In this document: piece after piece, positions 35-51,831 of the stretch
Layout: each line of letters opens with the position of its first letter
Position numbering within the stretch: position 1 is the stretch's first letter
Origin: Gemmatimonadota bacterium
GTDB lineage: Bacteria > Gemmatimonadota > Gemmatimonadetes > Gemmatimonadales > Gemmatimonadaceae
DNA length: 64,000 nucleotides
Assembly: GCA_027307165.1 (NCBI GenBank)
Contig: DAHUXM010000004.1
Span: 124,001-188,000 of the forward strand
Direction: 5' to 3'
The notes under the pieces: generated by a model
Told to the model about the DNA's origin: nothing
What the model saw: only the letters and a program-made list of their open reading frames with translations
The model's database searches: none
Translations under genes and position numbers: made by a program

Positions 35-72
35 GGCTGGATGACGTGGTGAAGTATATGGGCGCTCCGTTG

Positions 73-104
73 GGGCAGGCCCCCGTGCCTGCCCGTTTTC
101 TTTT
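73..104 (+). terminator. Intrinsic terminator upstream of flgL promoter
   Basis: An 8-bp perfect GC-rich stem (73-80 with 87-94, 6-base loop) is followed by a T-rich run (96-104). It points rightward, although the nearest left gene appears to be on the minus strand. It may insulate the flgL promoter from rightward transcription entering the spacer. Confidence 0.6.
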
Positions 105-112
105 CGAGACCG

Positions 113-140
113 TAAAGTTGCCAGGCGCCCCGCTCGATAC
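113..140 (+). promoter_or_regulatory. Sigma-28 (FliA)-type promoter for flgL
   Basis: TAAAGTTG at 113-120 is followed after 12 bases by CTCGATAC at 133-140, resembling the FliA consensus TAAAGTTT-N11-GCCGATAA with one extra spacer base. It lies 39 bases before the flgL start, downstream of the hairpin at 73-104. Confidence 0.5.
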
Positions 141-178
141 TCCACAGCATACGCTTTTGCGAGGAGCAAAGCAATACG

Positions 179-1509: not shown

Positions 1510-1557
1510 GGCGCGGACGCACTCCCGCCTTGCCCGGGGGCACCTTGTAATAGTTCG

Positions 1558-1595
1558 AACGCGAAAGGCGCGAAAATATTCGCGCCTTTCGCGTT
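1558..1595 (+). terminator. Strong hairpin ending the flgL-fliW operon
   Basis: A perfect 16-bp inverted repeat (1558-1573 with 1580-1595) encloses a 6-base AT loop. The right arm is followed by TAAAGC rather than a long T-run, so termination may be only partial. Its last base is the first base of the FliA-type -35 box of flagellin. From 1510 to 1557 nothing else is recognisable. Confidence 0.6.
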
Positions 1596-1621
1596 AAAGC
1601 TTTACTTGGCACTGCCGATAA
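1595..1621 (+). promoter_or_regulatory. Sigma-28 (FliA) promoter for flagellin
   Basis: TAAAGCTT (1595-1602), exactly 11 bases, then GCCGATAA (1614-1621) matches the FliA consensus TAAAGTTT-N11-GCCGATAA at 15 of 16 positions. Transcription would start near 1628-1632, giving a leader of about 70 bases before the flagellin ATG. Confidence 0.88.
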
Positions 1622-1654
1622 ATAGTCCATACGGCCATACCGGCCGGACCGGGT

Positions 1655-1670
1655 GGAGCAAGGAAGCTCT
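1655..1670 (+). promoter_or_regulatory. Candidate CsrA-binding hairpin in the flagellin leader
   Basis: The bases GAGC-AAGGAA-GCTC (1656-1669, extendable by a G-T pair) fold into a short hairpin with GGA in a six-base loop, the preferred CsrA/RsmA presentation. A second GGA lies in the Shine-Dalgarno AAAGGAG near 1684-1690. Two spaced GGA sites, one covering the ribosome-binding site, is the layout of the Bacillus hag leader. CsrA itself is not encoded in this window. Confidence 0.5.
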
Positions 1671-1700
1671 GCCACAAACCGCTAAAGGAGCCACACCGTA

Positions 1701-2801
1701 ATGTTTATTCAGAACAACATCAACTCGATGAACGCGTTGAACAACCTCAACACGAACGAGACCCAGCTGACCAGCTCGATCCAGAAGCTGTCATCTGGCT
1801 TCCGTCTCAATCGTGCAGGCGACGACGCGGCAGGCATGAGCATCGCGAACTCGCTTCGTAACAACGGTGTTGGCTTGCAGCAGGCCCAGCAGAATGCATC
1901 GCAGGCAGGCTCGCTGCTCCAGATCGCCGACGGTGCGACTCAGACGATTTCCTCGATCCTGGATCGTATGAAGCAGCTCGCCACCGAGTCTGCATCTGCC
2001 AACGTGACCGACAACGATCGCCAGAAGATCAACGCAGAGTTCACGCAGCTCTACGCCGAAATCAACCGCACGGTTGGAAGCACGGTGTACCAGGGTTCTC
2101 AGCTGTTGAACGGTAGCTTCGGCGTGAGCGATTCAGGCACAGGCACCGCGAACGCGGTTGTTGGCTTCTCGGGTCTCTCGGTTGCAGGCGCGAACGTCAA
2201 CTCGACCTATACCTTCACGAAGGTCGATGCCACGCATCTGAAGCTCTCGGACGGCACGTTCAGTCAGACTGTCACGACCGCGGCGACGGGCGTTCAGACC
2301 GTGAACTTCGACAAGATGGGCATTTCGTTCTCGTTCAACGGCGACCCGACAACGCTCGACACCAAGACGATCATCACCGCAAACACCACCAGTGCGGCCT
2401 TCCGCGTTGGCAGCGGTGCAACCAGCGATTCGGATAACCTCGTGAGCGTGAGCCTCGGCGATCTTCGTGCCAGCTCCGCCACCGGCCTGAACCTCGCCGG
2501 CGTTTCCGTTGACACGCTGGCGAACGCGACTTCCGCTCTCGCGAGCATCACGTCGGCCGTATCGGCGGTCAACACCGTCATCGGTTCGCTCGGTGCGGCT
2601 GAGAACCGCCTCAACTACGCGAGCACCAACGTCGCGTCGCTTTTCCAAAACGTGTCGGCGGCGGAGTCGGTCATCCGCGACACCAACATGGCGCAGGAAT
2701 ACACGAACTACAGCAAGCTCTCGATCCTCCAGCAGGCCGGTACGGCCATGCTCGCGCAGGCGAACTCGAGCCAGCAGAGCGTGCTGAAGCTCTTCCAGTA
2801 A
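1701..2801 (+). CDS. fliC: Flagellin
   Basis: Filament subunit, exported by the flagellar type III system. The 366-residue protein has the conserved N-terminal D0/D1 helices (MFIQNNINSMNALNNL, then KLSSGFRLNRAGDDAAG near residues 30-48), a variable serine/threonine-rich centre (about 150-265), and the conserved C-terminal D1/D0 helices ending NSSQQSVLKLFQ. The ENRLNY motif near residue 300 is also typical. An AAAGGAG Shine-Dalgarno precedes the ATG. It is expressed from its own near-perfect FliA promoter and has a likely CsrA hairpin in the leader. Only one flagellin gene is present here. Confidence 0.96.
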   Translation: MFIQNNINSMNALNNLNTNETQLTSSIQKLSSGFRLNRAGDDAAGMSIANSLRNNGVGLQQAQQNASQAGSLLQIADGATQTISSILDRMKQLATESASANVTDNDRQKINAEFTQLYAEINRTVGSTVYQGSQLLNGSFGVSDSGTGTANAVVGFSGLSVAGANVNSTYTFTKVDATHLKLSDGTFSQTVTTAATGVQTVNFDKMGISFSFNGDPTTLDTKTIITANTTSAAFRVGSGATSDSDNLVSVSLGDLRASSATGLNLAGVSVDTLANATSALASITSAVSAVNTVIGSLGAAENRLNYASTNVASLFQNVSAAESVIRDTNMAQEYTNYSKLSILQQAGTAMLAQANSSQQSVLKLFQ

Positions 2802-2868
2802 ATGAACTAACCGGGTGAGGGCAGCGGAGAGGGATCTCCTGTCTCCCCAAGCTCGGCTACGAGACCGT

Positions 2869-2888
2869 AGGGGCCCGAATGGGCTCCT
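2869..2888 (+). terminator. Weak hairpin between flagellin and fliD
   Basis: An 8-bp stem with one G-T pair and a GAAT loop lies in the 117-base gap between flagellin and fliD. No T-run follows, so it could attenuate rather than stop transcription, or stabilise the flagellin mRNA end. No FliA-type promoter is visible before fliD. Confidence 0.3.
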
Positions 2889-2918
2889 GCGGGCTCGTCG
2901 CATAAGGAGGATATAACG

Positions 2919-5900
2919 ATGAGCAGTCCTGTAGGATCATTCCCAGGCCTTGGCAGCAGCTTCGACTACACCGCGCTGGTCGATAGCCTGATCCAGGTTC
3001 AGTCGCAGCCCGGCGTCGCGATGCAGACACGCATCACGACCGCACAGGCGCAACAGAGCGCGTACCAGACCTACAGCGGCCTCCTCTCGAACCTCGAGGC
3101 TACCACAAGCCTCATGCGCGATGGAACGGCGTTTCAGGGTGTCAACGCCAGCGTTTCCAACGCGACTGCTGCGAACGGCCAGACGATCCTCTCCGCCTCG
3201 GCGCTGAGCGGGGCATCACCAGGATCCTACGCGGTCCAGGTGCTCCAGACCGCACAGGCGGAAAAACTCTCCGGTAACACCTTCGCGAGCAGTACCACGG
3301 CCCTCGGTCTTTCGGGCGACTTCGTCATCAATGGCAAGACCGTGACGATAGCCGCTGCCGATACACTGGTCTCGGTTCGCGACAAGATCAACGCAGTCAA
3401 CTCCGGCGCGACAGCCAGCGGTGTCAGCGCAGCGATCGTTACCGATTCGTCGAACGCGCAACGGCTCGTCCTCACGAGTGTGCAGACTGGTTCCCAGGGA
3501 ATCAACCTCGTGGATGGCTCGCAGGGCATCGCCCAGTCGTTGGGCTGGATCGACTCGACCACCGCGATCAAGCACGTTACCAGCGCGGGAGCGCAGAGCG
3601 ATAACTTCGCCTCCGCCACGACGAGCATCGGATCCCAGCTCGGACTCACCGTCGCGCCAGGCGCGCAGACGGTCACGATAGCGGGTCAGGCTGTCTCGGT
3701 CGATCTCAGCACCGACTCTCTCACTTCGCTCGCGGCGAAGTTCTCGGCGGTACCGGGGATCCAGGCGACAGTCCAGAGCACGACGGTCAACGGCACCACG
3801 CAGTATTACCTCGACGTCCGCAACACGACGAGCTTTGTCGATGGCGGAAACACATTGCAACAGCTCGGCATTCTCACTGCCGGCCGGTCGGCAGTGGCGC
3901 AGCAGCTGCAGAGTGGCGCGATGACGGACGGCAACGGCAGCACGCCGGCAACGGCGTCCACGCTTATTACCAATCTTTGGAATGGCGGCTCCGCATCGGG
4001 CGCCAAGGTCGGCGACACGCTGACGATATCCGGAACCCGCGGTGATGGCTCGGCTGTGAACGTGTCGTTCACCGTCGCTGCAGGCAGCACGGTGCAGGAT
4101 CTGCTCAATACGCTCAACAACGCAACCACTGGCTTCGGCGCAGGCGCGCGGCCGGCGACAGCATCCATCGACGCGAGCGGTCATATCGTCGTCAGCGACG
4201 GGACAGTCGGTCAGAGCAGTCTCTCGCTGCAGATGGTGGCCAACAATCAAGGCGGCGGCCGGCTCGATTTCGGCGCCTTCGCAACTACATCCACGGGTCG
4301 CTCGCGTGAGCTCGTGACCGGGACCGATGCAAAGTTCTCGGTCGACGGCGTTGCATTCACGCGCTCGAGCAATACGGTTTCGGACGTAATAGCAAACACG
4401 ACGCTCACGCTCACCGCTGCGGATCCGAATACGATCGCGAACGTGAACGTATCGCTCAGCAGCAGCGCGGCGACATCGGCCGTTCAGAATTACGTCAATG
4501 CGTACAACGCAGTCGTCGATTTCATCAAGACGCAGCAGACGCCTGGAACCGATCCCACCAGCAACCCGACTCTGTACAACGACCCGTTGCTGCGCACCGC
4601 GCGAAGCGCACTTTCCACATCGATGCTCACGCCAGTCACCGGCGCGGCATCGGACATGGCGACGCCGGACACGGTCGGCATATCGCTCACGAAGGACGGT
4701 CATCTATCGTTCGACTCCGCGAAATTTCAGACCGCGTTCACGAGCCGCTATGCAGACGTGACAAAGCTGTTCGAGGAATCCGGAGTCTCGACCAATCCGT
4801 CGCTCGTGTACACAGCATCGACGACCGCAACTCAGCCCGGTAGCTACGCTGTCAACATCACGCAGGTTGCTGCTCAGGCGCAGATGCTCGGTACCGGCTT
4901 CAGCGGCGTCTACAACCAGCCTGGCGCGCCGGATACGATGACCGTCACCGATCTTGCATCGAGCTCCACCGCTCAGATTCAGCTGAGTGGAGGAATGACC
5001 ACCGATCAGATCGTGGCTGCTCTGAACGCATCGTTCGGCACGCCGGAGAATCGCGCACTGTTGGGATCGGTGACACTGAACGACGCAACCGGGACGGCAG
5101 CAGCGACGTCCGCGACACTGCTGACCGATCTTCATCTGTCGAACGGCTCGTCCGCTGGAGTGGTTGCCGGTGATACGATCGGCTACAGCGGCACGCGTTC
5201 CGATGGCTCTGCCTACAGTGGCACATTCACCACGACCTCCACATCGACGGTTGCAGACTTCGTTACGCAGCTGCAGTCATCGGTTGGCACAAGTGCAACG
5301 GTATCGTTCGTCAACGGGCAGATCTCGGTGAAGGCGGGCAACAGCGGGACGTCGCAGCTCGCGATGTCGCTCACAGCGAACAACGAAGGTGGCGGCCAGC
5401 TCAATCTGGGGACGATGAACGTGACTGCAACCGGTCACGGTATTCTGTCGATGACTGCCACCGCAGTAGGCGGCCAGGTTCAGATTCAGCACAATGCGTT
5501 CGGTGCGTCGGCCGGATTCTCGATCGCCTACTCCGGCACGGGGAATCCGGCGACACAGCTGGGGATCGCGGCGGGAAGTGCGCACGGCGCGGATGTACAG
5601 GGCACGATTGGCGGCTACACTGCTACCGGGTCGGGACGCCAGCTCGTTGGTGCGTCCGGAACACCCGTCGATGGCCTGAGCATGGCCTATCTCGGTACGA
5701 CACCTGGTGCGATCGGCAGTCTTACGCTGACGCAGGGGTTCGGCTCCGTGATCGACCGGCTTCTCACCAGCTGGACGCAGACCGGCGGAACGATCGATGC
5801 ACAGAACCAGCAGCTCAACGACACGATTAGCATGCAGCAGTCGCGTCTCACTGATTTCAATGCGAGAATCGCGCTGCAGCGTGCCGCGCTGCTCAAGGAA

Positions 5901-6023
5901 TACTCGACGATGGACAGCACGGTGCAGCAGATCATGGCGCAAGGGAAATCCTTCCTGGCAGCGTTCACGAACCCATCGAACACCAGCACGAATGGAACCA
6001 CCTCAACCGGGCTCGGCCATTGA
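2919..6023 (+). CDS. fliD: Flagellar filament cap protein, unusually large
   Basis: FliD forms the cap that folds flagellin at the filament tip. The product is 1034 residues, about twice the usual 450-650. The N-terminal FliD_N region (residues 1-120) begins with the family opening GLGSSFDYTALVDSL. An INGKTVTI hook-IN motif follows near 130-150. FliD_C-like segments appear near residues 520-625 (AYNAVVDFI, then LTKDGHLSFDSAKF) and the coiled C-terminus is at about 935-1015. Inserted are two related blocks, residues 342-455 and 725-835, sharing GDT-SGTR-DGSA and an EGGG/GGG motif. A second FliD_N-like PGSYAV segment sits at residue 640 (the first is at 102). A strong AAGGAGG (2904-2910) precedes the ATG. 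It overlaps the next gene by four bases. Confidence 0.92.
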   Translation: MSSPVGSFPGLGSSFDYTALVDSLIQVQSQPGVAMQTRITTAQAQQSAYQTYSGLLSNLEATTSLMRDGTAFQGVNASVSNATAANGQTILSASALSGASPGSYAVQVLQTAQAEKLSGNTFASSTTALGLSGDFVINGKTVTIAAADTLVSVRDKINAVNSGATASGVSAAIVTDSSNAQRLVLTSVQTGSQGINLVDGSQGIAQSLGWIDSTTAIKHVTSAGAQSDNFASATTSIGSQLGLTVAPGAQTVTIAGQAVSVDLSTDSLTSLAAKFSAVPGIQATVQSTTVNGTTQYYLDVRNTTSFVDGGNTLQQLGILTAGRSAVAQQLQSGAMTDGNGSTPATASTLITNLWNGGSASGAKVGDTLTISGTRGDGSAVNVSFTVAAGSTVQDLLNTLNNATTGFGAGARPATASIDASGHIVVSDGTVGQSSLSLQMVANNQGGGRLDFGAFATTSTGRSRELVTGTDAKFSVDGVAFTRSSNTVSDVIANTTLTLTAADPNTIANVNVSLSSSAATSAVQNYVNAYNAVVDFIKTQQTPGTDPTSNPTLYNDPLLRTARSALSTSMLTPVTGAASDMATPDTVGISLTKDGHLSFDSAKFQTAFTSRYADVTKLFEESGVSTNPSLVYTASTTATQPGSYAVNITQVAAQAQMLGTGFSGVYNQPGAPDTMTVTDLASSSTAQIQLSGGMTTDQIVAALNASFGTPENRALLGSVTLNDATGTAAATSATLLTDLHLSNGSSAGVVAGDTIGYSGTRSDGSAYSGTFTTTSTSTVADFVTQLQSSVGTSATVSFVNGQISVKAGNSGTSQLAMSLTANNEGGGQLNLGTMNVTATGHGILSMTATAVGGQVQIQHNAFGASAGFSIAYSGTGNPATQLGIAAGSAHGADVQGTIGGYTATGSGRQLVGASGTPVDGLSMAYLGTTPGAIGSLTLTQGFGSVIDRLLTSWTQTGGTIDAQNQQLNDTISMQQSRLTDFNARIALQRAALLKEYSTMDSTVQQIMAQGKSFLAAFTNPSNTSTNGTTSTGLGH

Positions 6024-6487
6024 CGCGGGCACTCATCGCTGACGTACCGGTCGCTGCATATGCCAAGGCGGTGCATGCGCTCGATGAATTCGACGCGCTC
6101 GTGTCGAAGTATGAGATGCTGCTCGACACGCAGCAGGTGCTTGTACGGACAGCGAATTTCGCCGGACTCTTCGAGATGGCATCACGCGGAGACAAGCTTG
6201 CACGCGATGCGGCGCTGTGTGGGAAGCGCTTCGCGCCGCTCGTGAGCGCGATTGCGTCGGGTCAGTTTGCCGGCCCGCGTGCGAATGACATTCAGCGGCG
6301 AAGCTTCCGCTCCCGCTCGCAAGCCGAAACGCTGGATGGCTCCGCGTCGCGTCTCGCTGGCGTGTGTAGCGCACAGCGCGACATCATGGGGCGCGACCTG
6401 CGCGGCGGGGCGTCGGTGAGTCCGGAGGCTGGTCTCCCGCCCGCATATCGTACCGGATCACAGCGCTTCATCGACCGTCGCGGCTGA
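6020..6487 (+). CDS. Flagellar export chaperone-like protein (FlgN/FliT-like)
   Basis: This 155-residue cytoplasmic protein starts at a TTG that overlaps the fliD stop (TTGA). Residues 10-80 are predicted mostly helical with heptad-like leucines (ALDEFDALVSKYEMLLDTQQ and onward), the pattern of FlgN or FliT chaperones that hold FlgK/FlgL or FliD before export. The C-terminal half is rich in Arg, Ser and Gly and looks disordered. Position between fliD and fliS, where FliT-type chaperones usually lie, supports the call, but sequence identity is too weak to choose between FliT and FlgN. No alternative function is evident. Confidence 0.55.
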   Translation: MTRALIADVPVAAYAKAVHALDEFDALVSKYEMLLDTQQVLVRTANFAGLFEMASRGDKLARDAALCGKRFAPLVSAIASGQFAGPRANDIQRRSFRSRSQAETLDGSASRLAGVCSAQRDIMGRDLRGGASVSPEAGLPPAYRTGSQRFIDRRG

Positions 6488-6560
6488 ACGCGGCCTTCAG
6501 CGTCTCCAGGAGGACCGGTGACGTTCAAGTTTTGCACCCGCTCACCCGACACTGGCCAGC

Positions 6561-6992
6561 ATGGGATATAGCGCTTATACCTCCAAGTACCTTGAGAATG
6601 ATGTCGTGAGCCGGTCGAAGGAATGGCTGGTTCCCCTGCTGTACGAGCACCTGCTGGCGCAGCTCCGGCGCGCTCAGGTCCAGATCCAGCAACGCGATTT
6701 CGAGGGCAAGGCAGCGAGCCTGGAGAAGGCTTCAGCGATAGTCATCGAGTTGATGGGATCTCTCGATCGTGAGAAGGGCGGGGAACTCGCCCAGCGCCTC
6801 GCAGCGCTGTATGCGTACTTCGGTACCGAGATCCTGGCCATTGGCCGGACCCTGGATACAGGACGACTCACCAAGATCATGGAGATGGCTTCCAGCCTGC
6901 ATGAATCCTGGGTGATTGCCGCACGGACTCAATGGCCGGCAGGAAGCACGGCTCAGCCCGGCGATTCGCTGTACGATCCCAGAGGGCGGTAG
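6561..6992 (+). CDS. fliS: Flagellar secretion chaperone FliS
   Basis: FliS binds flagellin in the cytoplasm and prevents premature polymerisation. The 143-residue product is a typical four-helix FliS: an N-terminal Y-Y-N motif variant (GYSAYTSKYLENDV), then LLYEHLLAQLRRAQ near residues 27-40, and EKASAIVIELMGSLD around 55-70. The C-terminal tail after residue 120 is unstructured. It follows fliD and the chaperone-like gene in the same direction. No strong Shine-Dalgarno is seen before the ATG. The stop is immediately followed by the GTG of the next gene. Confidence 0.88.
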   Translation: MGYSAYTSKYLENDVVSRSKEWLVPLLYEHLLAQLRRAQVQIQQRDFEGKAASLEKASAIVIELMGSLDREKGGELAQRLAALYAYFGTEILAIGRTLDTGRLTKIMEMASSLHESWVIAARTQWPAGSTAQPGDSLYDPRGR

Positions 6993-6993
6993 C

Positions 6994-7284
6994 GTGCCGA
7001 CGGCGGGATCGCTCCTCGAGGAAAACCTGGACCGCGTGATCGATTCCGTCGTTCGGAACGTCAACGCAGGACTGGGGGCGGTGCCGGACCCCGATTCCAT
7101 GCAGGCGATGGATGCGACCGACAGCGCGTCGCTGGACGAGGCGGAGGCGCGAGAGACAATGGCCGACCTGTGCGGCCACGTCGCGCATGCGCTGAGAGCG
7201 CTCGATACTCAACCACGTGCCACAGCCACGTACAGGGCACCCGAAGCACCCGCGGCCGCCCCTACGCTCAATCTGGTCCGCTAG
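6994..7284 (+). CDS. Small protein of unknown function in the flagellar operon
   Basis: A 96-residue product, starting at a GTG one base after the fliS stop and preceded by GAGGGCGG. It is acidic and helical from about residue 5 to 70 (SLLEENLDRVIDSVVRNVN and onward), with an Ala/Pro-rich tail. There is no signal peptide, membrane segment or cysteine cluster. I do not recognise a family. Helical content, size and position just after fliS suggest another export chaperone or a FlgN-like partner, but this is only context. The longer upstream reading inside fliS is rejected because the GTG has better spacing. Confidence 0.6.
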   Translation: MPTAGSLLEENLDRVIDSVVRNVNAGLGAVPDPDSMQAMDATDSASLDEAEARETMADLCGHVAHALRALDTQPRATATYRAPEAPAAAPTLNLVR

Positions 7285-7307
7285 GCACAGGTACGACCGG
7301 GCGGCGG

Positions 7308-7335
7308 TAAAGTAACGGCCCCCGTAACCCGATAT
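7308..7335 (+). promoter_or_regulatory. Sigma-28-type promoter for flgM
   Basis: TAAAGTAA (7308-7315), 12 bases, then CCCGATAT (7328-7335) resembles the FliA consensus with one extra spacer base. It lies 23 bases before the flgM ATG, so the leader would be short. FliA-driven flgM gives the usual negative feedback. Confidence 0.55.
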
Positions 7336-7358
7336 TCGAAGGGAAGGAGATACTACTC

Positions 7359-7658
7359 ATGCACGTAAACAGAATCGCAGCCGACACACTTCGTACCGAC
7401 GCGCTACAGCGCGTGCAGGGTGCAGCTGCGCCTGAAGTTCCCGTCGATCCCATCTCGCCGACACGCGGCGCTGATGCGGTTCAGATATCGGATGCGGGGC
7501 TCGCTCTTGCAAGTGATGGCGCGAGCGCGCCGGTCTCATCGTCCCTCGACCCGGCACGCGCCGATCAGATCCGTTCGAAGGTTCTCTCGGGCGCCTACAA
7601 TTCGCTTGAAATGGCCGATCAGGTTGCGCGCGCTGTAATTCGCAGCGGCGACCTGTAG
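7359..7658 (+). CDS. flgM: Anti-sigma-28 factor FlgM
   Basis: FlgM binds and inhibits the flagellar sigma factor FliA until it is exported through the completed hook. The 99-residue protein has a disordered N-terminal two thirds and a C-terminal FlgM signature: DPARADQIRSKVLSGAYNSL then MADQVARAVIRS (about residues 64-96), matching the family pattern of R-I-x2-K-V-x-SG-Y-N-x5-VA. An AAGGGAAGGAG precedes the ATG. A FliA-type promoter lies immediately upstream. fliA itself is outside the window. Confidence 0.82.
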   Translation: MHVNRIAADTLRTDALQRVQGAAAPEVPVDPISPTRGADAVQISDAGLALASDGASAPVSSSLDPARADQIRSKVLSGAYNSLEMADQVARAVIRSGDL

Positions 7659-7691
7659 CAGCATTTTCTCAGTATTTCTGGAGCCAAGCAC

Positions 7692-8060
7692 ATGCGCTTC
7701 CTTGTTGTTGACGACTCTGCCACCATGCGCCGCATAGTGGTGAACTCCCTGCAACGCGTCGGTTTCAGCGACGTGGTGGAGGCGAGTGACGGAGCAGAGG
7801 CACTGGAGAAGATCGCTACTGTCGATTTCGTCATTACTGACTGGAACATGCCGAAGGTCAGTGGTGCGGAGCTCACAAGAGCGATTCGCTCCTGCGACGA
7901 GACAAAGTCGATGCCTCTCATCATGGTCACCGCACGCAGTGTTCGTGATGATATTCTCACCGCCATGGAAGCGGGAGTCGACAGCTACGTCGTCAAGCCA
8001 TTCACCCCCCAGGTTCTGCGCGAGAAGATCGACGCGGTACTGGCTACCAGAGCAGCATAG
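7692..8060 (+). CDS. cheY: Chemotaxis response regulator CheY
   Basis: Single-domain receiver of 122 residues that, when phosphorylated by CheA, would bind the flagellar motor switch. Seen are the acidic pair Asp7-Asp8, phospho-acceptor Asp50 in VITDWNMP, the Thr in IMVTARS near residue 80, and Lys in VVKPF near 102. There is no output domain. It sits 33 bases after flgM and 6 bases before the CheZ-like gene, which supports the chemotaxis assignment over a general receiver. cheA is not in the window. Confidence 0.88.
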   Translation: MRFLVVDDSATMRRIVVNSLQRVGFSDVVEASDGAEALEKIATVDFVITDWNMPKVSGAELTRAIRSCDETKSMPLIMVTARSVRDDILTAMEAGVDSYVVKPFTPQVLREKIDAVLATRAA

Positions 8061-8066
8061 ATTCCA

Positions 8067-8744
8067 ATGTCCAACTCACGCATCGCCGAAGTCCTTTACG
8101 ATTCCGAGACGATGCTCCGCCTGGTCGACAGCGAGCTCGAAGAGCTGCGTGACGACGGGCGGGATACCGGCCTTCGCGGAAACAACGTCGGCGTGCTGCT
8201 CGCCATGATGCAACGCGCCACGGGCGAGATCGCACAGGTCCTGTGCACACTGCACACGAGTCGCGAAGCCCTCCAGGGCGTAACACTTCAGGAGATTCAC
8301 GACAGCACGGCCAAGCTTGGCGAGGTGTGTTCCGCCACCGAGCTCGCCGCCACACGCATGATGGACGGCCTGGAGCGCGCACATGCATACGTCGACCGCC
8401 TGGATGAGATCGACGCCTCCGGCTCCTTCGACGACTCGATCGTCGAAGCAGCGGCCGTACGGGCGAAGGTGCGCGATGAGCTGTTCGCCGTCATGGGCTC
8501 GCTGCAATTTCAGGACATCACATCGCAACAGCTGGGGCACGTCGCGCAGATGCTCCGTGACATAGAGCGCCGCCTGCACGCAACGTCGTCGCTGCTGTCC
8601 GGTGGTCGTGCAGAAGCGGCTGTCATTTCCAACGAACAGCTGCCAACCTTCAGCGAGTCCGCCTCCACGAGAAACTCGTTCGAGCGTCAGGCCACGGCCG
8701 ACGCGCTGTTCTGGTGCGATCACTCCGGCAAGACCACGCAGTAG
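8067..8744 (+). CDS. cheZ: CheZ-type CheY-P phosphatase
   Basis: A 225-residue, mostly helical cytoplasmic protein immediately downstream of cheY. The segment [11 protein letters not shown] (residues 146-156) matches the CheZ active-site motif, with Asp150 and Gln154 in the same D-x3-Q spacing as the catalytic Asp and Gln of Escherichia coli CheZ. Residues 40-135 give the long helical hairpin expected of the dimer. The C-terminus (after about 185) is a flexible linker ending in a short hydrophobic-plus-charged stretch (ADALFWCDH), in the position where CheZ carries its CheY-binding peptide. It would dephosphorylate CheY-P to end the motor signal. Confidence 0.8.
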
Positions 8745-8766
8745 CCCACGCAGAGCCAGCTACAAA

Positions 8767-11124
8767 GTGCATGCGTCAGTTCTGATTCTTGGGCTCGGCA
8801 TCTCGATCGAGGCGGTTCTCGTCGTCATGCTCGCTCGACACGTACGACGCCTGAAGCTTGCTGGTGCTGCCGCCGCAGCAACGACCCGCGTAGACGAGGG
8901 CCACGCGCAAAGCATCCGCGGCGCACTCACAGAGCGCGAGACGCTCATGCGCGAGATGCAGCAGATACTCTCGGGGCTGGATCAGAAGGTGCGTGAGCGG
9001 ACGCTCGAGCTCGCAGAGGCGATGGAGAAGGCCGAGCAGGGGAACCAGGCCAAGAGCGAATTTCTTGCGCGCATGTCGCACGAGATCCGTACGCCCATGA
9101 ACGGCATCCTCGGCATGACGGGACTGCTCCTCGATACGGGACTCAATCAGGAACAGCGCGAGTACGTCGATACGGTTCGGTCATCGGGACAGGCGCTCCT
9201 CACGATCATCAATGAGATTCTCGACTTCTCCAAGATCGAAGCGGGCCGACTCGAGATCGAGATCATCGATTGCAATGTTCGCACGACGGTGGAGGAAGTC
9301 GTCGAGCTGCTTGCCGATCAGGCGATGCAGAAGAAGCTGGAGCTCGGCTTCTATGTCGACGAGCGCGTGCCTGCCGTCGTTCGCACGGATCAGGGCCGGC
9401 TGCGCCAGATTCTCCTGAACCTGGTAGGCAACGCGATCAAGTTCACACAGGTCGGTCGCATCTACATCCACGTGACCGTCGAGTCGGAAACCGACGCAGG
9501 CGTGCAGTTGCGATTCGACGTCAACGACACCGGCATCGGTCTCACCGCCGAAGCGCGAACGCGATTGTTCCAGCCGTTTCAGCAGGCAGACAGTTCCACT
9601 ACGCGCAAGTACGGCGGCACCGGTCTGGGGCTCGCGATCTCGAAGCATCTCGTCGGCCTGCTCGGCGGCGCCATGGACGTCGCCAGCGTTCCGGGAGAGG
9701 GAAGTGTATTTCACTTCACCATCGCAGCGCAGCGGGGGCCACGAGTGATGTCGACGCCGAGCGCAAACGTGATGAAGGACTCACGCGTCCTGGTACTCGT
9801 TCGCGGCAAGCTCACACGTGTAGTGCTCCGACGTTACGCCGCAGATTGGGGTGCAATCGTGGATGGTGCACGCACGGTTGCCGATGCACGCGCTTTGCTT
9901 CGCGCCAGCATCGCCGCCGGTCTGCGGTACGACCTGGTGATCGCCGATCTTTCGACGCTGGGCTCCGATCCTCTTCGGTCGATTCGGGATCTGCGCCGCG
10001 AATTTTCCGAGGGTATCGGCGGCGTCGTCGCACTGGCACCAAACCGGCAAAAGCCCAGCGCCGACACGGCGTCCAGAGCGGGCATCGATGTCACCTTCGC
10101 CCTGCCAGTCCGTCCCACGCGACTGCTTGGCGTTCTCGGATCGGTGCTCCATCCGGATCTCGCGCCCAAGGTGCGACGGGTCGCGGAAACGGCAGTTGCC
10201 GGTGCACAGAGCAAGGCGCGCGCGCGCGTACTGGTGGCAGAGGACAATCCGGTAAACCAACGCGTAGCGTCGCACATGCTGAACAAGCTCGGGTATCGCT
10301 GCGACATTGCGTCCAATGGTCTGGAAGCTGTCGCGATGCTTGCCCAGCTCCCGTACGATCTTGTGCTGATGGATTGTCAGATGCCGGAGATGGACGGCTA
10401 CACCGCTACTCGCGCGATCCGGCAGCGCGAGGATGCTCAGGATCGGCATACGCCGATCATCGCAATGACTGCGAACGCAATGCGCGAGGATCGTGCGCGC
10501 TGCCTGGACGCAGGCATGGACGGCTTCATTCCAAAGCCGATTGCGCTGGAAGAGCTCGAAACTGCCATGGAATGCTGGATCCCGAGCGATTCGAAACCGG
10601 GTGCCGAGAGTTCAACGCCGGACGCCAGCGACTATCTGTTTACTGGACCGGCGAGGCAGCGCGAACCCGCCGAATCCGGTCCGGCGACGTCGTTCGCGGC
10701 CGATCCGGCTCTGGTCGCGGCGCTTGCGGCCCAGTTCGATAATTCCGGGGGCTCCATGGATCAATCATCGGTCGACCTGTCCGTGCTGGATAATCTCGCA
10801 GCCATGGCGGAAGGTGGCGATGACTTCGTGTCGCGCCTCATAGGAACGTTCATATCGGACACTTCGTCCCGAATTGTCACCCTTCGCGCTGCGCTGGATA
10901 CCGGGGACCTGCCGCTGATCGAGCGCACGGGTCACGCCCTCAAGGGCAGCAGCGGTAACATGGGTGCGACGACCATGGCCGCGCTGGGTGCTGCGCTGCA
11001 AGGGGCGGGACAGAAGCACGATACGGCTGGCGCGCGGACGCTGATCGACGAGATGGAAGCCGAGTTCATGCGTGTCAGAGGGGTTCTGGACAGCGCTTTT
11101 CCGAGTCACGCGGTAGCAGCCTGA
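8767..11124 (+). CDS. Hybrid sensor histidine kinase with receiver and Hpt domains
   Basis: A 785-residue BarA/ArcB-type multistep phosphorelay kinase, reading from a GTG at 8767 just after cheZ. One N-terminal membrane helix (about 5-28) is followed by a coiled coil. HisKA has His105 in SHEIRTP. HATPase_c has the N-box Asn222 and the G1/G2 boxes DTGIGL and GTGLGLAIS. Residues 339-461 form a receiver-like fold without the phospho-Asp context (a pseudo-receiver). A canonical receiver follows (485-600, Asp536 in [11 protein letters not shown]) and then an Hpt domain with His723 in [12 protein letters not shown]. There is no periplasmic sensor domain, so the signal is probably membrane-borne or cytoplasmic. 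The partner may be the regulator at 11197. Confidence 0.88.
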
Positions 11125-11196
11125 GGCTTGGCAGCACGGGCCTTACGGTGGACGTTCTCCTCTACAGTCCGGCACTGAGACGCCGATAATTGGAGT

Positions 11197-11961
11197 ATGA
11201 TCCAGATCATCGAAGACGACCTCGTCACGTGCCACATCATCTCCGCGTTGCTCAAGCGTATGCGTTACGCGCACTGCGAAGCGCACACCGGCGCCGAGGC
11301 TCTGCAGCAGCTTCGAACGCAGCCGATCGACATGGTGATTGCCGACATGATGCTGCCTGACATGAACGGCCTGGATCTTCTCAAGCAGAAGCACAGCATG
11401 CCTCATCTGCGTGACATTCCAGTGCTCTGCTGCACAGCCCAGGCGGATATCGAAACGGTGGAAGCGGCGCTCGGTTTTGGTGCAATCGATTTCGTGAAGA
11501 AACCGATCGCGATCCAGTCGTTCGCGGGGCGCATCAATCGCGCCATGGAACGCTCGCCGGTGCGCTGGGAATCGTGGCGCGAGATGAGCAAGCGTCTGCG
11601 CTTCTACAGCCGGACGATCCAGCCGATGCTGGCCATCGCGAACCAGGTTCTGCATGAACTGGACGACGCTCTGGCACAGGCGCAGGTCGGACCTGTCGAC
11701 GTTCCGTTGCTCAACTCGGTAGTTACGCGCGCTCGCGGTGCCGCGCTCAACGTTGGCGCGATCCGTACCGTGCAGCAGATCGACAAGTTGTGGAAGGGCG
11801 ACGGCGCGGCGGAGGAAGTCGAGCACCTGCGGGCCGCGATGGTGATCGAGCTCGCGGCATTCGACGACGCCATCAAGAACCGCGCGTCGCAGGGTGAAGT
11901 TCCGTCGCCGATTGGCGGCACCGGGCACGCTCCGACACCGATGGCCGCAAGCGGAATGTAG
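11197..11961 (+). CDS. Response regulator with uncharacterised C-terminal helical domain
   Basis: A 254-residue protein. Residues 1-120 form a receiver domain: acidic EDD at 6-8, phospho-acceptor Asp50 in VIADMMLPDMNG, and Lys in DFVKKPI near 102. Residues 125-235 are predicted helical and match no DNA-binding or enzymatic output domain that I know. Basic WREMSKRLRF and repeated Ala/Val helices are visible. It follows the hybrid kinase by 72 bases and may receive phosphate from its Hpt domain. The C-terminal 20 residues are Gly/Pro-rich. The output could be protein interaction rather than transcription. Confidence 0.8.
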   Translation: MIQIIEDDLVTCHIISALLKRMRYAHCEAHTGAEALQQLRTQPIDMVIADMMLPDMNGLDLLKQKHSMPHLRDIPVLCCTAQADIETVEAALGFGAIDFVKKPIAIQSFAGRINRAMERSPVRWESWREMSKRLRFYSRTIQPMLAIANQVLHELDDALAQAQVGPVDVPLLNSVVTRARGAALNVGAIRTVQQIDKLWKGDGAAEEVEHLRAAMVIELAAFDDAIKNRASQGEVPSPIGGTGHAPTPMAASGM

Positions 11962-45588: not shown

Positions 45589-46296
45589 TTACACCGCGGA
45601 ACGGTTCTGGATTCGTTCCACGAGCGCTGGGAGGTGGGCTATGTCCGTCAGGAAATGCGTCGGACTCGCGCTCTCGAGCTGGTCGCGGCGAAAAGGGCCC
45701 CAGAGCGCGGCTATCGAAACCACACCTGCTGCATTGCCGGCGTTGACGTCGTGCGGTGAGTCTCCGACGAAAACGGCCTCGCTCGCCTCGTAGCCCAGCT
45801 CGCCCAGGGCCATGCGGACCGGGAATGGATCGGGCTTGTGGGCGGAACAGGAGTCGCAGCCGATTTTCGACTGCATGTACGGTGCGATGCCTGTGAGATC
45901 GAGAGCGCGGTCCATCATCTCATTGGACTTGCTCGTGACGATGCCCATCGGATGGCCTGCCGCAGCGAGGTGTCCGAGGGTTTCCAGCGTTCCCGGGAAG
46001 ACCGTCGTCAGGCGATCGTGCGCGGCGCGCTGAAAGACGCGGTAGCGCGTCGTTACTGCGTCCAGCTGGTCGTCGGTCTCGCAGTATGCTTTGAGCTGGG
46101 TGGCAAGCGGGGTGCCGATTCCGGCGACCCATTCTTCCTCCGTCGGGGATCGTCCGGTAAAGCCCTCGAATGCGTGTTTGACGCTGGCGAGCAACAGGCC
46201 TATGGAATCGATGAGAGTGCCGTCCAGGTCGAAAAGGACTGCGATCGGACGGGTACGATGCTGCACTCCGGGCGCAGCTGTGTTCGGTTGTGCCAT
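45589..46296 (-). CDS. HAD-superfamily phosphatase (Gph/PpaX-like)
   Basis: A 235-residue HAD hydrolase. Motif I is VLFDLDGTLIDS near residues 20-31 with the nucleophile Asp, motif II is IVTSK, motif III Lys is in AHKPDPFPV, and motif IV is FVGDSPHDVNAG. A helical cap lies between motifs I and II, as in phosphoglycolate or pyrophosphate phosphatases. The substrate is unresolved. A TACATT box ends six bases before the ATG at 46296 and no Shine-Dalgarno is seen. Sixty-two bases separate it from the SNF2 gene upstream. Confidence 0.87.
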   Translation of the reverse strand: MAQPNTAAPGVQHRTRPIAVLFDLDGTLIDSIGLLLASVKHAFEGFTGRSPTEEEWVAGIGTPLATQLKAYCETDDQLDAVTTRYRVFQRAAHDRLTTVFPGTLETLGHLAAAGHPMGIVTSKSNEMMDRALDLTGIAPYMQSKIGCDSCSAHKPDPFPVRMALGELGYEASEAVFVGDSPHDVNAGNAAGVVSIAALWGPFRRDQLESASPTHFLTDIAHLPALVERIQNRSAV

Positions 46297-46358
46297 ATGG
46301 CGAATGTAATGGATCGCGACCCTCGATTGGGCGTATCTCGAACGGGCGTTCGAAAGCA

Positions 46359-48635
46359 TTACGGCAGCCTCTCCGGCGACATGAAGATGAGCGCGGCCAG
46401 ACGGATGCCCTTTTCACGTACCTGGTCGGGGAAACGCCGAGCTCTGTCGACAAGCTCGAGGATGGTGTCGACGGCGGCCTCGTCGGGGGAGTCGGAGAGG
46501 GTCTCGAGCGACCACTCCACCGCTAGCGGCAGTGGCTTTGTGGCCGCACTCCTGAGGCGTGTGGCGATAGCGGCGAAATGGGCTCTTCGCGCAAAGTTCG
46601 CGTTGGCGCTGGCGGCATCTGCGACGCGTGCGAGGGCTCGTCTTGCGTCGTGCACTCCGGGAATGGTTGCGCTTCCGTCTGGTGCGCCGAGTGCGTGCCA
46701 GGCGCAGCGCTGTTGATACCAGGAATCGGCAGACTGGAGTACCAACGACAGACGTGTCGCAATCTCATGGCGGAACGCCGCGTCTTCGGTGCCTTCAGCG
46801 GCTTCAGCACGGTCTGCGAGATCGGTCGCGGCTTCGACGGCGTGAGCGTCGTCGGTCAGTCCGGAAACTTCGTCCCATGCGAGCAGGGTGGCGCTGCCGT
46901 CGACGATCCACACGCCGAGCGTGGCAGCGCGGGCCGCGCGCGCCAGGGCGACGACGCGCGAGCTGCTTGCCGGATCTAACACATCGAGATCGGTGCGTCG
47001 CCATTTCTCGATCGTTGCGCGTACACGTTCGCCACGCTGGATCGTCGCTCGGTCGTTCGGTCGCGCAGACAGGTTGGTGATCGTCGAGTGACCGAACATG
47101 TGCGCGGCGAAATCCGACTTGCGCGCGATTATCTCCAGCTCATGGAGAAACATCTCCGCTCGTGGCGAAGGGCTCACAGTGTATGACATCACGCGATGGT
47201 GTCGCGAACCCATGCGTGCCAGGCGGCCGATGCGTTGCTCCACGCGAGCAGCGGTCCACGGAAGGTCGAGGTGAATCACGACGGACGCTTCCTGGAGATT
47301 CACGCCCTCGCTCAACAGATCCGTCGCGACGAGGAAGTTGATGGTTGCGTGGTTATCGAGCCGATCGTGTCGACCCTCTGGTGCGAACTGGGCGAGCACC
47401 TCCGCTCGGCTGACGGGTCCGCTTGCGATCATCGCTCCGCGGGCGGTCAACAAAGCAGCGTGCCCATCGCGTTTGACAAGCCGATAAATCGCTTCAGCGG
47501 TCTCTGCATAGCACGAGAACGCCACGACCTTCTCGGCGGGATGCGTTCGCACGACATGCCGGACGAATCCCGCGAGTACCTGGTCGTCGATCGTCCTGGC
47601 GTGCACCAGCAGCGCGTCGAGTGCCGACACGTGCTCGCGCAGTGCCGAGCCGAGCGCCGCGAGCGGAGCGGTCGCTGGAACCAGCAACTCTGCAAACGCG
47701 AGCTGCACTGCGTCGTCGCTGTACATCCACGCAGACAGCTCGGCGGCGGTAGGATACCGGCCCGTATCGAGAGATGCGAGCAGTCCATGCGAGCGTGCTA
47801 TTCTGCGTTTGAGCGCGCCGACGAGCGCCGCGTTGCTGGACACCCACTGTCGCACCAGTCCGTGCATGACGAGCCGTGTCGCGACGCCGCCGTCGCTCGG
47901 AGGCACCGGCGGCGGAAGGGCGAGAATCATGTCGAGTATGGTAGCATCCGTCGCGATCACCACCGGAGGAGCGTGCTCCACAACGGGTATGTTGCCCGCT
48001 CCGGCGTGCGCTGCTGAGTCGCGCCGCACCATGAGGGGGAGGAATTCCGCTCCGGTCATCGTGTATGCGCGTGACCCGATGAACAGAGCGGCAAGTGCCG
48101 CGACGTCATCGTGCGAATTATGCAGTGGAGTCGCAGAGAGCAGGAGAACACGGCTGAGGATGCAGAGACGTGCGAGTGCCGAGTAGCGACGAGTGCAGGT
48201 ATTCCGAAAGTTGTGAGCCTCGTCGACGATTATCAGATCGCGTCGTCTCACGGGCGGGCCCGTGCGCCCGAGTGATTCGGCCGTGACGAATTCAGCTCTG
48301 ACGTGGGTCGCGGCGAGGGCATGCAGCCACATGTCCGTGAGCGAGGCTGGGGCGATTACGGTCACTGCCTGGTAACGAGCCCCGACCGCGAGTGCGACGT
48401 ACGTCTTGCCGAGCCCGACATCGTCGCAGAGAAGCGCGCCGCCATGCTCCGATATCGTACGCTTTATGCGTGCGACCGCGGACCGCTGGTGGGGGTGAAG
48501 TGTGATGTCCCCAATGCGAAGTTGCTGCGGTTCGTCGCCAAGCATGCACGCAGCGATCGCCGCGCGTGCATCAGCGACAGAGACGACGCGCGGCTCGGCG
48601 TCCTGCTGGGTCGTGTCAATCGTTGTTGCGAGCAT
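46359..48635 (-). CDS. SNF2-family helicase/translocase of a methyltransferase-helicase cassette
   Basis: A 758-residue superfamily 2 ATPase. Q-motif-like LHPHQRSAV near residues 46-54, Walker A DDVGLGKT (71-78), DEAH (138-141), LLLSATPLHN (motif III), FSCYAETAEAIYRLV (start of the second RecA-like lobe), VATDLLSEGVNLQEA (motif V) and DLPWTAARVEQRIGRLARMG (motif VI) are all intact. The last 250 residues are helical and match nothing that I know. No nuclease domain is seen. It overlaps the methyltransferase gene by 20 bases and is the second gene of a two-gene operon. Known relatives are HepA/RapA and the DrmD helicase of DISARM. A defence role is inference. Confidence 0.88.
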   Translation of the reverse strand: MLATTIDTTQQDAEPRVVSVADARAAIAACMLGDEPQQLRIGDITLHPHQRSAVARIKRTISEHGGALLCDDVGLGKTYVALAVGARYQAVTVIAPASLTDMWLHALAATHVRAEFVTAESLGRTGPPVRRRDLIIVDEAHNFRNTCTRRYSALARLCILSRVLLLSATPLHNSHDDVAALAALFIGSRAYTMTGAEFLPLMVRRDSAAHAGAGNIPVVEHAPPVVIATDATILDMILALPPPVPPSDGGVATRLVMHGLVRQWVSSNAALVGALKRRIARSHGLLASLDTGRYPTAAELSAWMYSDDAVQLAFAELLVPATAPLAALGSALREHVSALDALLVHARTIDDQVLAGFVRHVVRTHPAEKVVAFSCYAETAEAIYRLVKRDGHAALLTARGAMIASGPVSRAEVLAQFAPEGRHDRLDNHATINFLVATDLLSEGVNLQEASVVIHLDLPWTAARVEQRIGRLARMGSRHHRVMSYTVSPSPRAEMFLHELEIIARKSDFAAHMFGHSTITNLSARPNDRATIQRGERVRATIEKWRRTDLDVLDPASSSRVVALARAARAATLGVWIVDGSATLLAWDEVSGLTDDAHAVEAATDLADRAEAAEGTEDAAFRHEIATRLSLVLQSADSWYQQRCAWHALGAPDGSATIPGVHDARRALARVADAASANANFARRAHFAAIATRLRSAATKPLPLAVEWSLETLSDSPDEAAVDTILELVDRARRFPDQVREKGIRLAALIFMSPERLP

Positions 48636-51600
48636 GGGTCCACTCGAGAAGCGGCAGGAGGGCAGATTCGTTCAAGCCATACGCGGACAGCACGAGAGCA
48701 TCGAGATCATCGTCGTCTGGCTCTTTCCCGCCACGCGCGGCTTCCGCGACCGGCGCGAGCAGTCTCACGGCGCGCGACCAGTCCGACGGGACGGGCAAGC
48801 GCGCGATCGTCCAGCCGAGATACCGGTGATAGCCGCCGCGTGCCGGCTCCGCAATCGCGCCGAGCCATGCTGCAGCTATCCGCGAGTTGAGGATGGTCGC
48901 GAGCGCGAGAGCGTCTGTCATGCAATTGCACGTCACGGAGTAACAGGTGTTGAGAGGGACTGTCGGATCACCTGCTTCGAGAACGGCTGCTCTGGGCGCG
49001 CGCCCGAAGTCGGCCCAGATCACGCGCGGCGACATGGCGCACGCACTCTCGACGCGGAAGAGGGACCACCAGCGATCCGAGCGGGAGTCGCTCCGTCGCT
49101 CGAGCGCGCGCCGGGAGCGCGCAAGCCAGCGGTGCGCGTTCGGTGGCAGCGCGCGGAACGGTGTGCCGGCGTCATCGTGGGTCCATATGATTCGCTCATC
49201 GTCCGGAGCGAGCCGCCATCGCGTCAGCGTTTCTCCCCGGACCAGCGGCCGAAGCAACTGCGTTTCGATCTCGCTCCGTCTTCCGGCCGCGGTGATGTCC
49301 GTCACCTCACCATGATTGTCGCACGCTCGAACGACAAATGCGTCGTTGCAGCCGGTCTTGACGCCGAGGTGTGGTCGTCCCAGTGCTGTGGTAAATAGTG
49401 GAGCGCCGGCGGCTGTCAGCAGATCGAATGACTCGCGAGCCCGAGGGGCGAGCAACAGCCACGGGCTCCCCGGCGAAGGATCGAGCGAAAGGTTTTCCGC
49501 AGCAACGTTCCAGTGCGAAATGTCGCTGCGATGCTGTACGCTGACTTGTACGGGACAGTTGTGTTCTGCTTCGCCTTCGGAAATGCGCGTTGCAACAAGC
49601 ATCGAAGGGTACACTGCAGCCTCGAATGCGTCGGGAGCATTGGAGTAATCGCCGAGCGCGATGATTCGGGTGCGTTCGAGTACGAGCTGGCGCGCGCCAC
49701 CGCCCGCCAGCGAGCTCCACAGCTTGGATGGTAGAAGCAGTCCCATGACGCCACCGGGCGCGAGCAGGTCCACCGATCGCTCCACGAACAGAGCCGCGAG
49801 GTCAGTCTGTCCGGCGAAGCCCTGACCGGCGCTTGCACCACGCGCTCCCTCCAACCACGCGCCACGACGGAACACGCTGAATTTCTCCCGATAGCGCGCG
49901 CGATCGTCGACGTGCATGTTGTGCACCCGAACCCAGGGCGGATTACCGACGATTACATCGAATCCACCGGACTCGGCGACATCCGCGAAATGGATCGGAT
50001 AGGCGAACGCCGGTGTCGCGCCGCGCGTGATTGCCACACGCTTTCGTCGCAACGCTCGCATGGTTGCGCGCAGTTGGAGCAGTCTGTCGCGCTGTTTCGG
50101 ATCCGGCGCCGTGCGTACGTCGAAGAGGTCGCGCGACCGGACGGCACGAACGATCTCCTTGCGCTCGAATCGGACCGCGGTGATTCGGACGTCGATCGCA
50201 TCAACTGCACGCATACGCTCCACGACGTCGAGCTGCCTGCCGAGGGAAAGCTTTCTCCGACCGCTGGATCGCGCGTATCGATCCCGTAGCGCCGATGGGC
50301 CTCGCGGTGTGGCAGCGCGCGAAGCCTGACCTGCGAATCCGTCGTCCGCAAGCGAGTTCCCGACGCGAATCTGGCGATCCAGATTCGGCAGAGGAATGAC
50401 ACGCATGGGGTCCTGCTCGTCGCTGTCGATCACGGCAGACAGCCACAGCCGCAACTCGCACAGCCATACTGCTGTCGGACTGGAATCCACGCCGAAAATC
50501 GACTGTCGGAGCACCGAGCGCCGCACATTGCTCGGCGAGTCCGTATCACCGAGCGCGATCCGCAGGCGTGCCATGCGTTCGAGTGCATAGACGAGGAATG
50601 CGCCGGAGCCGCAGGCGGGATCGAGAATTCGCAGGCGCTTCACGTCTTCCAGAAGGCGTGGATTCGGGCCCGTTCTCGGTGTCTGGTCATCGAGCAGCAG
50701 CTCGGCCTGTCTGCGTGTCATGCCGGTGCGTTCGAGCGCGCTCCGGAATGCGAGAGTGGTGAGCCTTTCCACGAAGCGCTGTGGAGTGTAGAACACTCCT
50801 CCGCGTTTGCGGTCGCCGGATTCCATCAGCGATTCGAAGACCTTGCCGAGCATCTCGGGATCGATGGCGGCCTGGGACCATGTGGTTGCGTCCTCACGCG
50901 CGGTGAAGCGAAATCGAATGAGGACATCACCGAAGAGAGCGCCGAGTGCGTCGTCGGAGAATCGCGACTGGCGGTGGATGCGCTCGACGGTCGTGCGGGA
51001 GAAGAGTCCGCCGTTGAGGAACGGGACGCGTCCGAACGCCCGGGATCGCGGTGCGCGTTCGGAGACCCGCGTGTTCAGCGTTCCAAAGAAGAGCGGCTCG
51101 AGTACGCGGCGCTGATACGCGCCTCCGCTCGCAATACACTCGGTGAATCCGTTGGCGAGAAAGCCGAAGTCGTTGTTGAGCCAACCCTTGGTTTCGAGAA
51201 ACGAAAGGAAGAGAAGGCGGCTCGTCGTGAGAATCGCAATCTCGCGCGCATCTGCGACTGGCACTTGTGATGGGAGAGAGTCGACGAGTGAGTCGATCGC
51301 ATGCGCGAGAGCATGAAAGAACCGGCGGGTAACCGCATCACGGCCGAGTACGTCGAGCCAGCGCATGTGACGCATCTCATCCCCGTAAGCGGCGCTTGCC
51401 GCTGACAACGCGCACAACGTCTCCGCGTCACTGTCCACGACGTTGCCGCGCTCGGAGATCAATGCGACGATCTGTGGGCTGGAGCGAACGCGGCGCCACG
51501 TTGCGATGCCGAGTGTCGATCCGTCGCGATGACCGACGACGACGAGCCAGAGGAGGTGCGGCGCCTGCATCGTGAGCTGGCGCGCTATCACGGTTATTGC

Positions 51601-51831
51601 TTCCCGCACGTTCGCAGCGTGTTCGATCTCTGCGCTCAGCGCGCGCAACGATCCCTCGCCAGAGCTTATGCGGGCTGAGAGTATTGCGGTGGGAAGTCCG
51701 AGCCGATCGCGCGACGCAGCATCGAGCGGATGTGACTGGTCGGTGAAGCCCAGCGTCGCGAGCAGCGCGTCCATTCCACCCTCGTGAGCGGTGGCGTCGA
51801 TGATCCGCGCGGCATGAGTGAGAGAGTCCAC
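48616..51831 (-). CDS. Eco57I/PglX-like N6-adenine DNA methyltransferase
   Basis: A 1071-residue protein of the type IIG/BREX PglX class. Residues about 180-380 show the family's pre-catalytic region (LLFLSFLETKGWL, VPFLNGGLFS, IDPEMLGKVFESLM, KRGGVFYTPQRFVERL). Motif I DPACGSGAFL lies at about 404-413 and motif IV NPPW at about 630, marking an N6-adenine methylase. A TaqI-like recognition domain follows (LGVKTGCNDAFVV, LLRPLVRGETLTRW). The first 180 residues show no PD-(D/E)xK nuclease motif, unlike true type IIG enzymes. It is first in the operon with the SNF2 gene. This cassette lacks any BREX or DISARM partner within the window. Confidence 0.9.
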   Translation of the reverse strand: MDSLTHAARIIDATAHEGGMDALLATLGFTDQSHPLDAASRDRLGLPTAILSARISSGEGSLRALSAEIEHAANVREAITVIARQLTMQAPHLLWLVVVGHRDGSTLGIATWRRVRSSPQIVALISERGNVVDSDAETLCALSAASAAYGDEMRHMRWLDVLGRDAVTRRFFHALAHAIDSLVDSLPSQVPVADAREIAILTTSRLLFLSFLETKGWLNNDFGFLANGFTECIASGGAYQRRVLEPLFFGTLNTRVSERAPRSRAFGRVPFLNGGLFSRTTVERIHRQSRFSDDALGALFGDVLIRFRFTAREDATTWSQAAIDPEMLGKVFESLMESGDRKRGGVFYTPQRFVERLTTLAFRSALERTGMTRRQAELLLDDQTPRTGPNPRLLEDVKRLRILDPACGSGAFLVYALERMARLRIALGDTDSPSNVRRSVLRQSIFGVDSSPTAVWLCELRLWLSAVIDSDEQDPMRVIPLPNLDRQIRVGNSLADDGFAGQASRAATPRGPSALRDRYARSSGRRKLSLGRQLDVVERMRAVDAIDVRITAVRFERKEIVRAVRSRDLFDVRTAPDPKQRDRLLQLRATMRALRRKRVAITRGATPAFAYPIHFADVAESGGFDVIVGNPPWVRVHNMHVDDRARYREKFSVFRRGAWLEGARGASAGQGFAGQTDLAALFVERSVDLLAPGGVMGLLLPSKLWSSLAGGGARQLVLERTRIIALGDYSNAPDAFEAAVYPSMLVATRISEGEAEHNCPVQVSVQHRSDISHWNVAAENLSLDPSPGSPWLLLAPRARESFDLLTAAGAPLFTTALGRPHLGVKTGCNDAFVVRACDNHGEVTDITAAGRRSEIETQLLRPLVRGETLTRWRLAPDDERIIWTHDDAGTPFRALPPNAHRWLARSRRALERRSDSRSDRWWSLFRVESACAMSPRVIWADFGRAPRAAVLEAGDPTVPLNTCYSVTCNCMTDALALATILNSRIAAAWLGAIAEPARGGYHRYLGWTIARLPVPSDWSRAVRLLAPVAEAARGGKEPDDDDLDALVLSAYGLNESALLPLLEWTHARNND

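Follow-up and report, generated by a model that had tools for sequence, protein, structure and literature searches.

Restriction-modification genes are usually patchy in their distribution and fast-changing. Among the described systems closest to the locus studied here, those that combine a PLD-SNF2 helicase with an Eco57I/type IIG-like methylase (PADLOC C3a139 'HKD+Snf2', REase_MTase_IIG-class) have the same homologous, adjacent methylase and SNF2 motor and likewise no further recurrent partner. However, their helicase is 1050-1100 aa long, carries an HKD nuclease and is usually encoded first, whereas our pair has a 758-aa helicase without nuclease, and the methylase comes first. They are also scattered over phyla and viral contigs with a variable recognition domain, as opposed to the order-wide and fixed pair. 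Type ISP enzymes (LlaGI, LlaBIII; structural matches with Z of 23.6 and 22.9) also join a methylase and recognition domain with a helicase, but do so in one polypeptide that includes the nuclease instead of two proteins and no nuclease. Class 1 DISARM (DrmD-DrmMI) likewise combines a SNF2 helicase with an adenine methylase. PglX-like methylases occur in BREX and in BREX-related/Hma systems, and the BREX-related systems have a SNF2 helicase too (PMC12839542). In a NAR 2026 survey of BREX-related systems, HKD-SNF2 helicases are reported alongside methylases and DUF499 ATPases; its main text makes no mention of Gemmatimonadota (PMC12839542). Finally, CamA is an orphan methylase present in every Clostridioides difficile genome without a restriction enzyme (PMC8187626). 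CamA has no helicase partner and is species-wide only, whereas the pair described here spans an order, the Gemmatimonadales. These are bacteria of soil and freshwater. No description of the methylase-helicase pair was found among the papers covered by full-text searches.

Architecture of the locus

The window (the whole stretch of 64,000 nucleotides that was analysed) lies well inside a 311,691-base contig, around its middle, from a 3.7-Mb genome that belongs, judging by named relatives, to the Gemmatimonadota, family Gemmatimonadaceae. An earlier note, made from the sequence, had described a PglX/Eco57I-like adenine methylase overlapping a SNF2 helicase, and both open reading frames were recovered as it had placed them (Table 1). 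The 20-base overlap is probably a sign of translational coupling; methylase/helicase overlaps, mostly short, were seen again in most homologous loci. Since the pair was found again, intact, in more than a hundred genomes, it is far beyond chance. Both genes are under purifying selection (dN/dS 0.13-0.18). The note had argued for a working unit; its other option, a degraded remnant, is made improbable for the two genes together by this selection and by their intactness in so many genomes.

Table 1. Features of the methylase-helicase locus, in window positions
Feature	Position	Strand	Basis
Eco57I-type (gamma-class) adenine-N6 DNA methyltransferase with own target-recognition domain, 1071 aa, GTG start	48616..51831	-	Pfam, AlphaFold2
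Methylase N-terminal domain, residues 1-165, least conserved part	51337..51831	-	no conserved nuclease-type residues
SAM-binding motif DPACGSGAF, residues 404-412	50596..50622	-	invariant or nearly so in A1
Methylase catalytic motif NPPW, residues 630-633	49933..49944	-	invariant in A1
Target-recognition domain, residues 761-1045	48697..49551	-	conserved as much as core in family
Gene overlap, 20 bases	48616..48635	-	ORF coordinates
SNF2-family helicase/translocase without nuclease domain, 758 aa, ATG start	46359..48635	-	Pfam, motifs, AlphaFold2
Helicase motif I GLGKT, residues 74-78	48402..48416	-	homologue alignment
Helicase motif II DEAH, residues 138-141	48213..48224	-	homologue alignment
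Helicase motifs V and VI, residues 438-474	47214..47324	-	homologue alignment
Helicase C-terminal region, residues 507-758, variable	46362..47117	-	fold matches stop near residue 536
HAD phosphatase (PpaX/Gph-like), syntenic neighbour, probably outside unit	45589..46359	-	stays where pair lost

The methylase matched the Pfam families Eco57I (9.7e-21), N6_Mtase (6e-10) and also MmeI_Mtase; the label PglX/Eco57I-like is a fair one, although the NCBIfam PglX model scored far under its cut-off. Its AlphaFold2 model (pLDDT 91.3) came closest in structure to CamA, with Z 28.6 across 497 residues, and the structural kin of residues 165-1058 also included M.BseCI, BrxX/PglX, MmeI and the type ISP enzyme LlaGI. 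The helicase matched Helicase_C (1.2e-14) and SNF2-rel_dom (1.2e-10), and the motor of its model (pLDDT 84.7) resembled the SNF2 remodellers INO80 and ISWI as well as ZorD. Its motifs are intact, as had been proposed: GLGKT, DEAH, motif III, TD..EG and QR.GR were invariant or nearly so across 32 homologues.

The methylase N-terminal domain and the variable C-terminal region of the helicase were searched for a hidden nuclease. Residues 1-165 of the methylase have no D, E, H or K conserved at more than 70%, and residues 507-758 of the helicase have one alone, E707 (81%), whereas catalytic positions were invariant. As to a nuclease in the methylase chain, the type IIG feature, residues 1-165 thus have no conserved catalytic-type residue; the fold comparison spanned 165-1058. 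The helicase itself showed no Pfam PLD match and no HxK...GSxN motif, and only 73 residues precede its motif I.

Defence context

The earlier note had pointed out that the partners of DISARM and BREX are missing from the window, and this proved correct. PADLOC analysis of 50 neighbour proteins, taken from 16-64 kb of the window and from 20 kb beyond it, had as its only hits a RecQ helicase, to DpdF-like models, and a single mad3-like protein, with no match to DrmA/B/C or to HmaC (the DUF499 ATPase of BREX-related/Hma systems). The MZB domain PF09369 (DrmB-type) was absent from the whole genome. The genome also lacks a BREX PglZ, its sole PF08665 match being a receiver-PglZ protein of the PorX type on another contig. 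Model scores were far under the cut-offs as well (101.8 bits versus 610 for DrmD; 64.1 bits at best versus 400 for PglX), and both DISARM and BREX were rejected as identities for the pair. No defence-island context was found among the same 50 proteins. A PorX-type response regulator with a PglZ domain lies at G000:C26:85500-88200; PglZ-domain proteins of similar size occur in nearly all genomes of the family and can be mistaken for BREX PglZ. At the other end of the window (1-11200), the genes have the appearance of flagellar and chemotaxis-like ones (flagellin, FliD, CheY-like).

Distribution and inheritance

Across 298 genomes of the phylum, and with a match threshold of E <= 1e-20, the methylase was present in 91 of 103 genomes of the same family, in 64/69 other genomes of the order and in 11 of the 126 remaining ones. 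The helicase profile matched 96 of 109 family genomes and 71/77 of those of good quality; one of these matches, in G228, is weak and to another helicase. As a yardstick, type I HsdR was found in 32/109 and 24/77, respectively. Like an orphan core methylase, the enzyme is near-universal in its lineage, vertically inherited and without a cognate nuclease at its locus. Methylase-negative genomes of the family were smaller than the others (median 2.6 versus 3.8 Mb, p = 8e-5). One apparent negative, G235, has a piece of the methylase at a contig end. None of 17 methylase-negative genomes showed the pair helicase, and no case of the helicase alone was seen. The methylase alone occurs in a single genome, G079, from which the helicase has been lost cleanly. 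This asymmetry (n=1 for the methylase) is what one would predict of a motor that still damages DNA lacking the mark. A second helicase of 1067 aa, distantly like that of the pair and without HKD motif, was observed in a congener (G022:C5:49304-51154), and similar extra copies exist in other genomes of the family.

A survey of homologous pairs, each locus being read at up to about 20 kb, showed the helicase directly after the methylase in 39 of 40 loci, which bears out the conserved adjacency that had been proposed for checking. In G024 (G024:C3:25500-45000), about 12 kb, probably an insertion, lie between a methylase without its C-terminal end and the pair helicase. Apparent methylase-helicase fusions in G158 and G023 were rejected: the two matches are in different frames, and the long ORFs reflect open frames that overlap in high-GC DNA.

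Genes for a HAD phosphatase, a sigma factor, a glycosyltransferase and others flank the pair in several families. Five genomes (G172, G263, G188, G248 and G210) retain these flanks and have lost both genes together, and at three of these empty sites the HAD gene and the conserved gene after it are no more than about 130-250 bases apart. In three families of the class, the gene after the helicase is that of the HAD phosphatase, which was considered as a third component; since it remains where the pair has been lost, it is probably not part of the unit. The pair is vertically inherited, its gene tree following taxonomy. Specifically, in an unrooted tree of 116 methylases, families f1, f2/f3, f4 and f9 each formed one clade with support of 100, and the window sequence stood beside its two congeners. 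Vertical inheritance is judged from this tree, as pair distances correlated only moderately (0.33-0.76) with those of neighbour genes.

Relatives with a PLD nuclease

More distant relatives of the pair are two-gene units with a helicase of 1050-1100 aa, usually before the methylase, in Chloroflexota, Cyanobacteria, Bacteroidota, Verrucomicrobiota, archaea, candidate phyla and viral contigs. An N-terminal Pfam PLDc_2 domain was present in 5/5 PLD-type helicases scanned and in none of the methylase-first group. The HKD motif (HxK...GSxN) was likewise found in 40 of 43 PLD-type helicases (two of the other three are cut by a contig end) versus 0 of about 56 in the methylase-first group. This group comprises Gemmatimonadota and a few Myxococcota, Acidobacteriota and Pseudomonadota. 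Outside Gemmatimonadota, the methylase-first, nuclease-less arrangement was seen at loci L105, L109, L108, L111, L117, L119, L123 and L154 (Myxococcota, Acidobacteriota, Pseudomonadota and one viral contig). In the related two-gene systems the helicase bears a PLD nuclease, so that the pair follows a known plan with the nuclease left out.

The helicase of the sister family f9 has about 225 residues before motif I, without HKD motif. A profile of this region aligned with PLD-type proteins (95.5% probability); the aligned part is mainly the linker, together with the end of the domain, and does not include the catalytic core. The region is a probable PLD remnant devoid of the catalytic motif. Because f9 keeps this region, the PLD nuclease was likely lost within the Gemmatimonadota lineage, a reading that draws on the remnant in one sister family and on the unrooted tree.

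Target recognition and candidate mark

Identity in the recognition domain relative to the methylase core was 0.96 within the family of the window (sd 0.07, minimum 0.81; 203 pairs at 38-62% core identity), versus 0.69 in the PLD-type relatives at equal core identity (sd 0.18, minimum 0.20; 508 pairs). As the ratio was 0.80 in families f2/f3, the constancy of the domain is greatest within the window's family and lower over the order as a whole. Swaps of the recognition domain had been suspected because many methylase matches ended near residue 750, but were rejected, as the domain was present at all such loci where the contig extends further.

The genome with the methylase alone, G079 (7.5 Mb, four contigs), fits Gemmatirosa kalamazoonensis KBS708. 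In the methylome of that strain, three m6A marks are active: RGATCY, ATGCAC and CCAGN7TCA. When four methylase families were searched in G079, only the pair methylase and one HsdM were present. CamA and MmeI-type enzymes have non-palindromic targets. Since the HsdM would explain the bipartite CCAGN7TCA, and ATGCAC is non-palindromic like the targets of those enzymes, ATGCAC is the better candidate for the mark of the pair methylase, by elimination only, RGATCY also being without an identified enzyme. Given that this strain has lost the helicase, the ATGCAC mark, if it is that of the pair methylase, is made without the motor.

ATGCAC showed no avoidance of the kind that would point to restriction (observed/expected 0.96), which is weak evidence either way. 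In about 447 kb of family DNA that includes the window, AGATCT was strongly under-represented (observed/expected 0.54) and ranked among the most avoided 6-mers, possibly through old restriction pressure; GGATCC was nearly as frequent as expected. RGATCY is methylated in Gemmatirosa.

Possible roles of the pair

The reading as a defence cassette stood only in part: the pair is a self-contained two-gene unit under purifying selection, with conserved adjacency and none of the known partners. Because no defence island surrounds the pair, its prevalence is that of a core gene, its inheritance follows taxonomy and its recognition domain is constant, the claim of a candidate minimal defence system is unsupported as it stands.

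We lean towards regarding the pair as a nuclease-less, vertically inherited and domesticated descendant of a two-gene, ATP-dependent PLD-helicase restriction-modification system. In the relatives from other phyla, self DNA would receive its mark at a short motif from an Eco57I-type methylase, and DNA without the mark would be attacked by a SNF2 translocase that bears an N-terminal PLD (HKD) nuclease. Along the Gemmatimonadota lineage, the nuclease domain would have lost its catalytic motif (sister family) or gone altogether (Gemmatimonadales), and methylase and motor would have stayed as a co-inherited core pair. The methylase would then write one lineage-typical, non-palindromic m6A mark, with ATGCAC as the candidate, and the motor would act on DNA solely as a translocase, its likeliest task being to remodel or clear proteins at sites that are unmarked or have just been replicated. 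Retention throughout the order suggests a standing role in the handling of the cell's own DNA, as opposed to a swappable anti-virus weapon, and a housekeeping or regulatory role seems likelier than phage defence.

Against such a role, defence by translocation without a nuclease is conceivable. The motor would recognise unmarked incoming DNA and block its replication or transcription, and the methylase would protect self; since the lineage shares one mark, only DNA from outside the lineage would be barred. This would agree with the relatives being probable restriction systems, some of them on viral contigs, with the invariant helicase motifs and with the lack of the pair helicase in the methylase-negative genomes. 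Nevertheless, we find it unlikely: the core distribution, the fixed locus, the absence of a defence island and the conserved recognition domain all speak against it, and phages would easily escape a constant motif. It is considerably less probable that the pair is a split PLD-type restriction-modification system. A nuclease encoded elsewhere in the genome could indeed be recruited and act in trans, and sister systems do carry a nuclease on the helicase, but near the pair no third gene recurs except the housekeeping neighbours. Equally doubtful is that the methylase alone matters, as an orphan core methylase like CamA, with the helicase a passenger kept by translational coupling. On the one hand, G079 does without the helicase, and the methylase is the better conserved of the two proteins (mean column identity 43% versus 29%). 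On the other hand, the helicase has a dN/dS of 0.16-0.18, its ATPase motifs are invariant across families of the class, and it is kept in 96/109 family genomes.

Under the favoured reading of a domesticated restriction-modification system, it is possible, if tentative, that the whole order has turned such a system into a core 'writer plus motor'. A constant m6A mark over the genome would then work with a SNF2 remodeller in regulation, in maintenance linked to replication or in labelling DNA identity across the order. Some Gemmatimonadaceae are in culture, and a candidate motif is available from one published methylome. The pair makes the role of a SNF2 motor beside a bacterial DNA mark testable, and would be a natural experiment in which a defence system turns into a core function of the cell.
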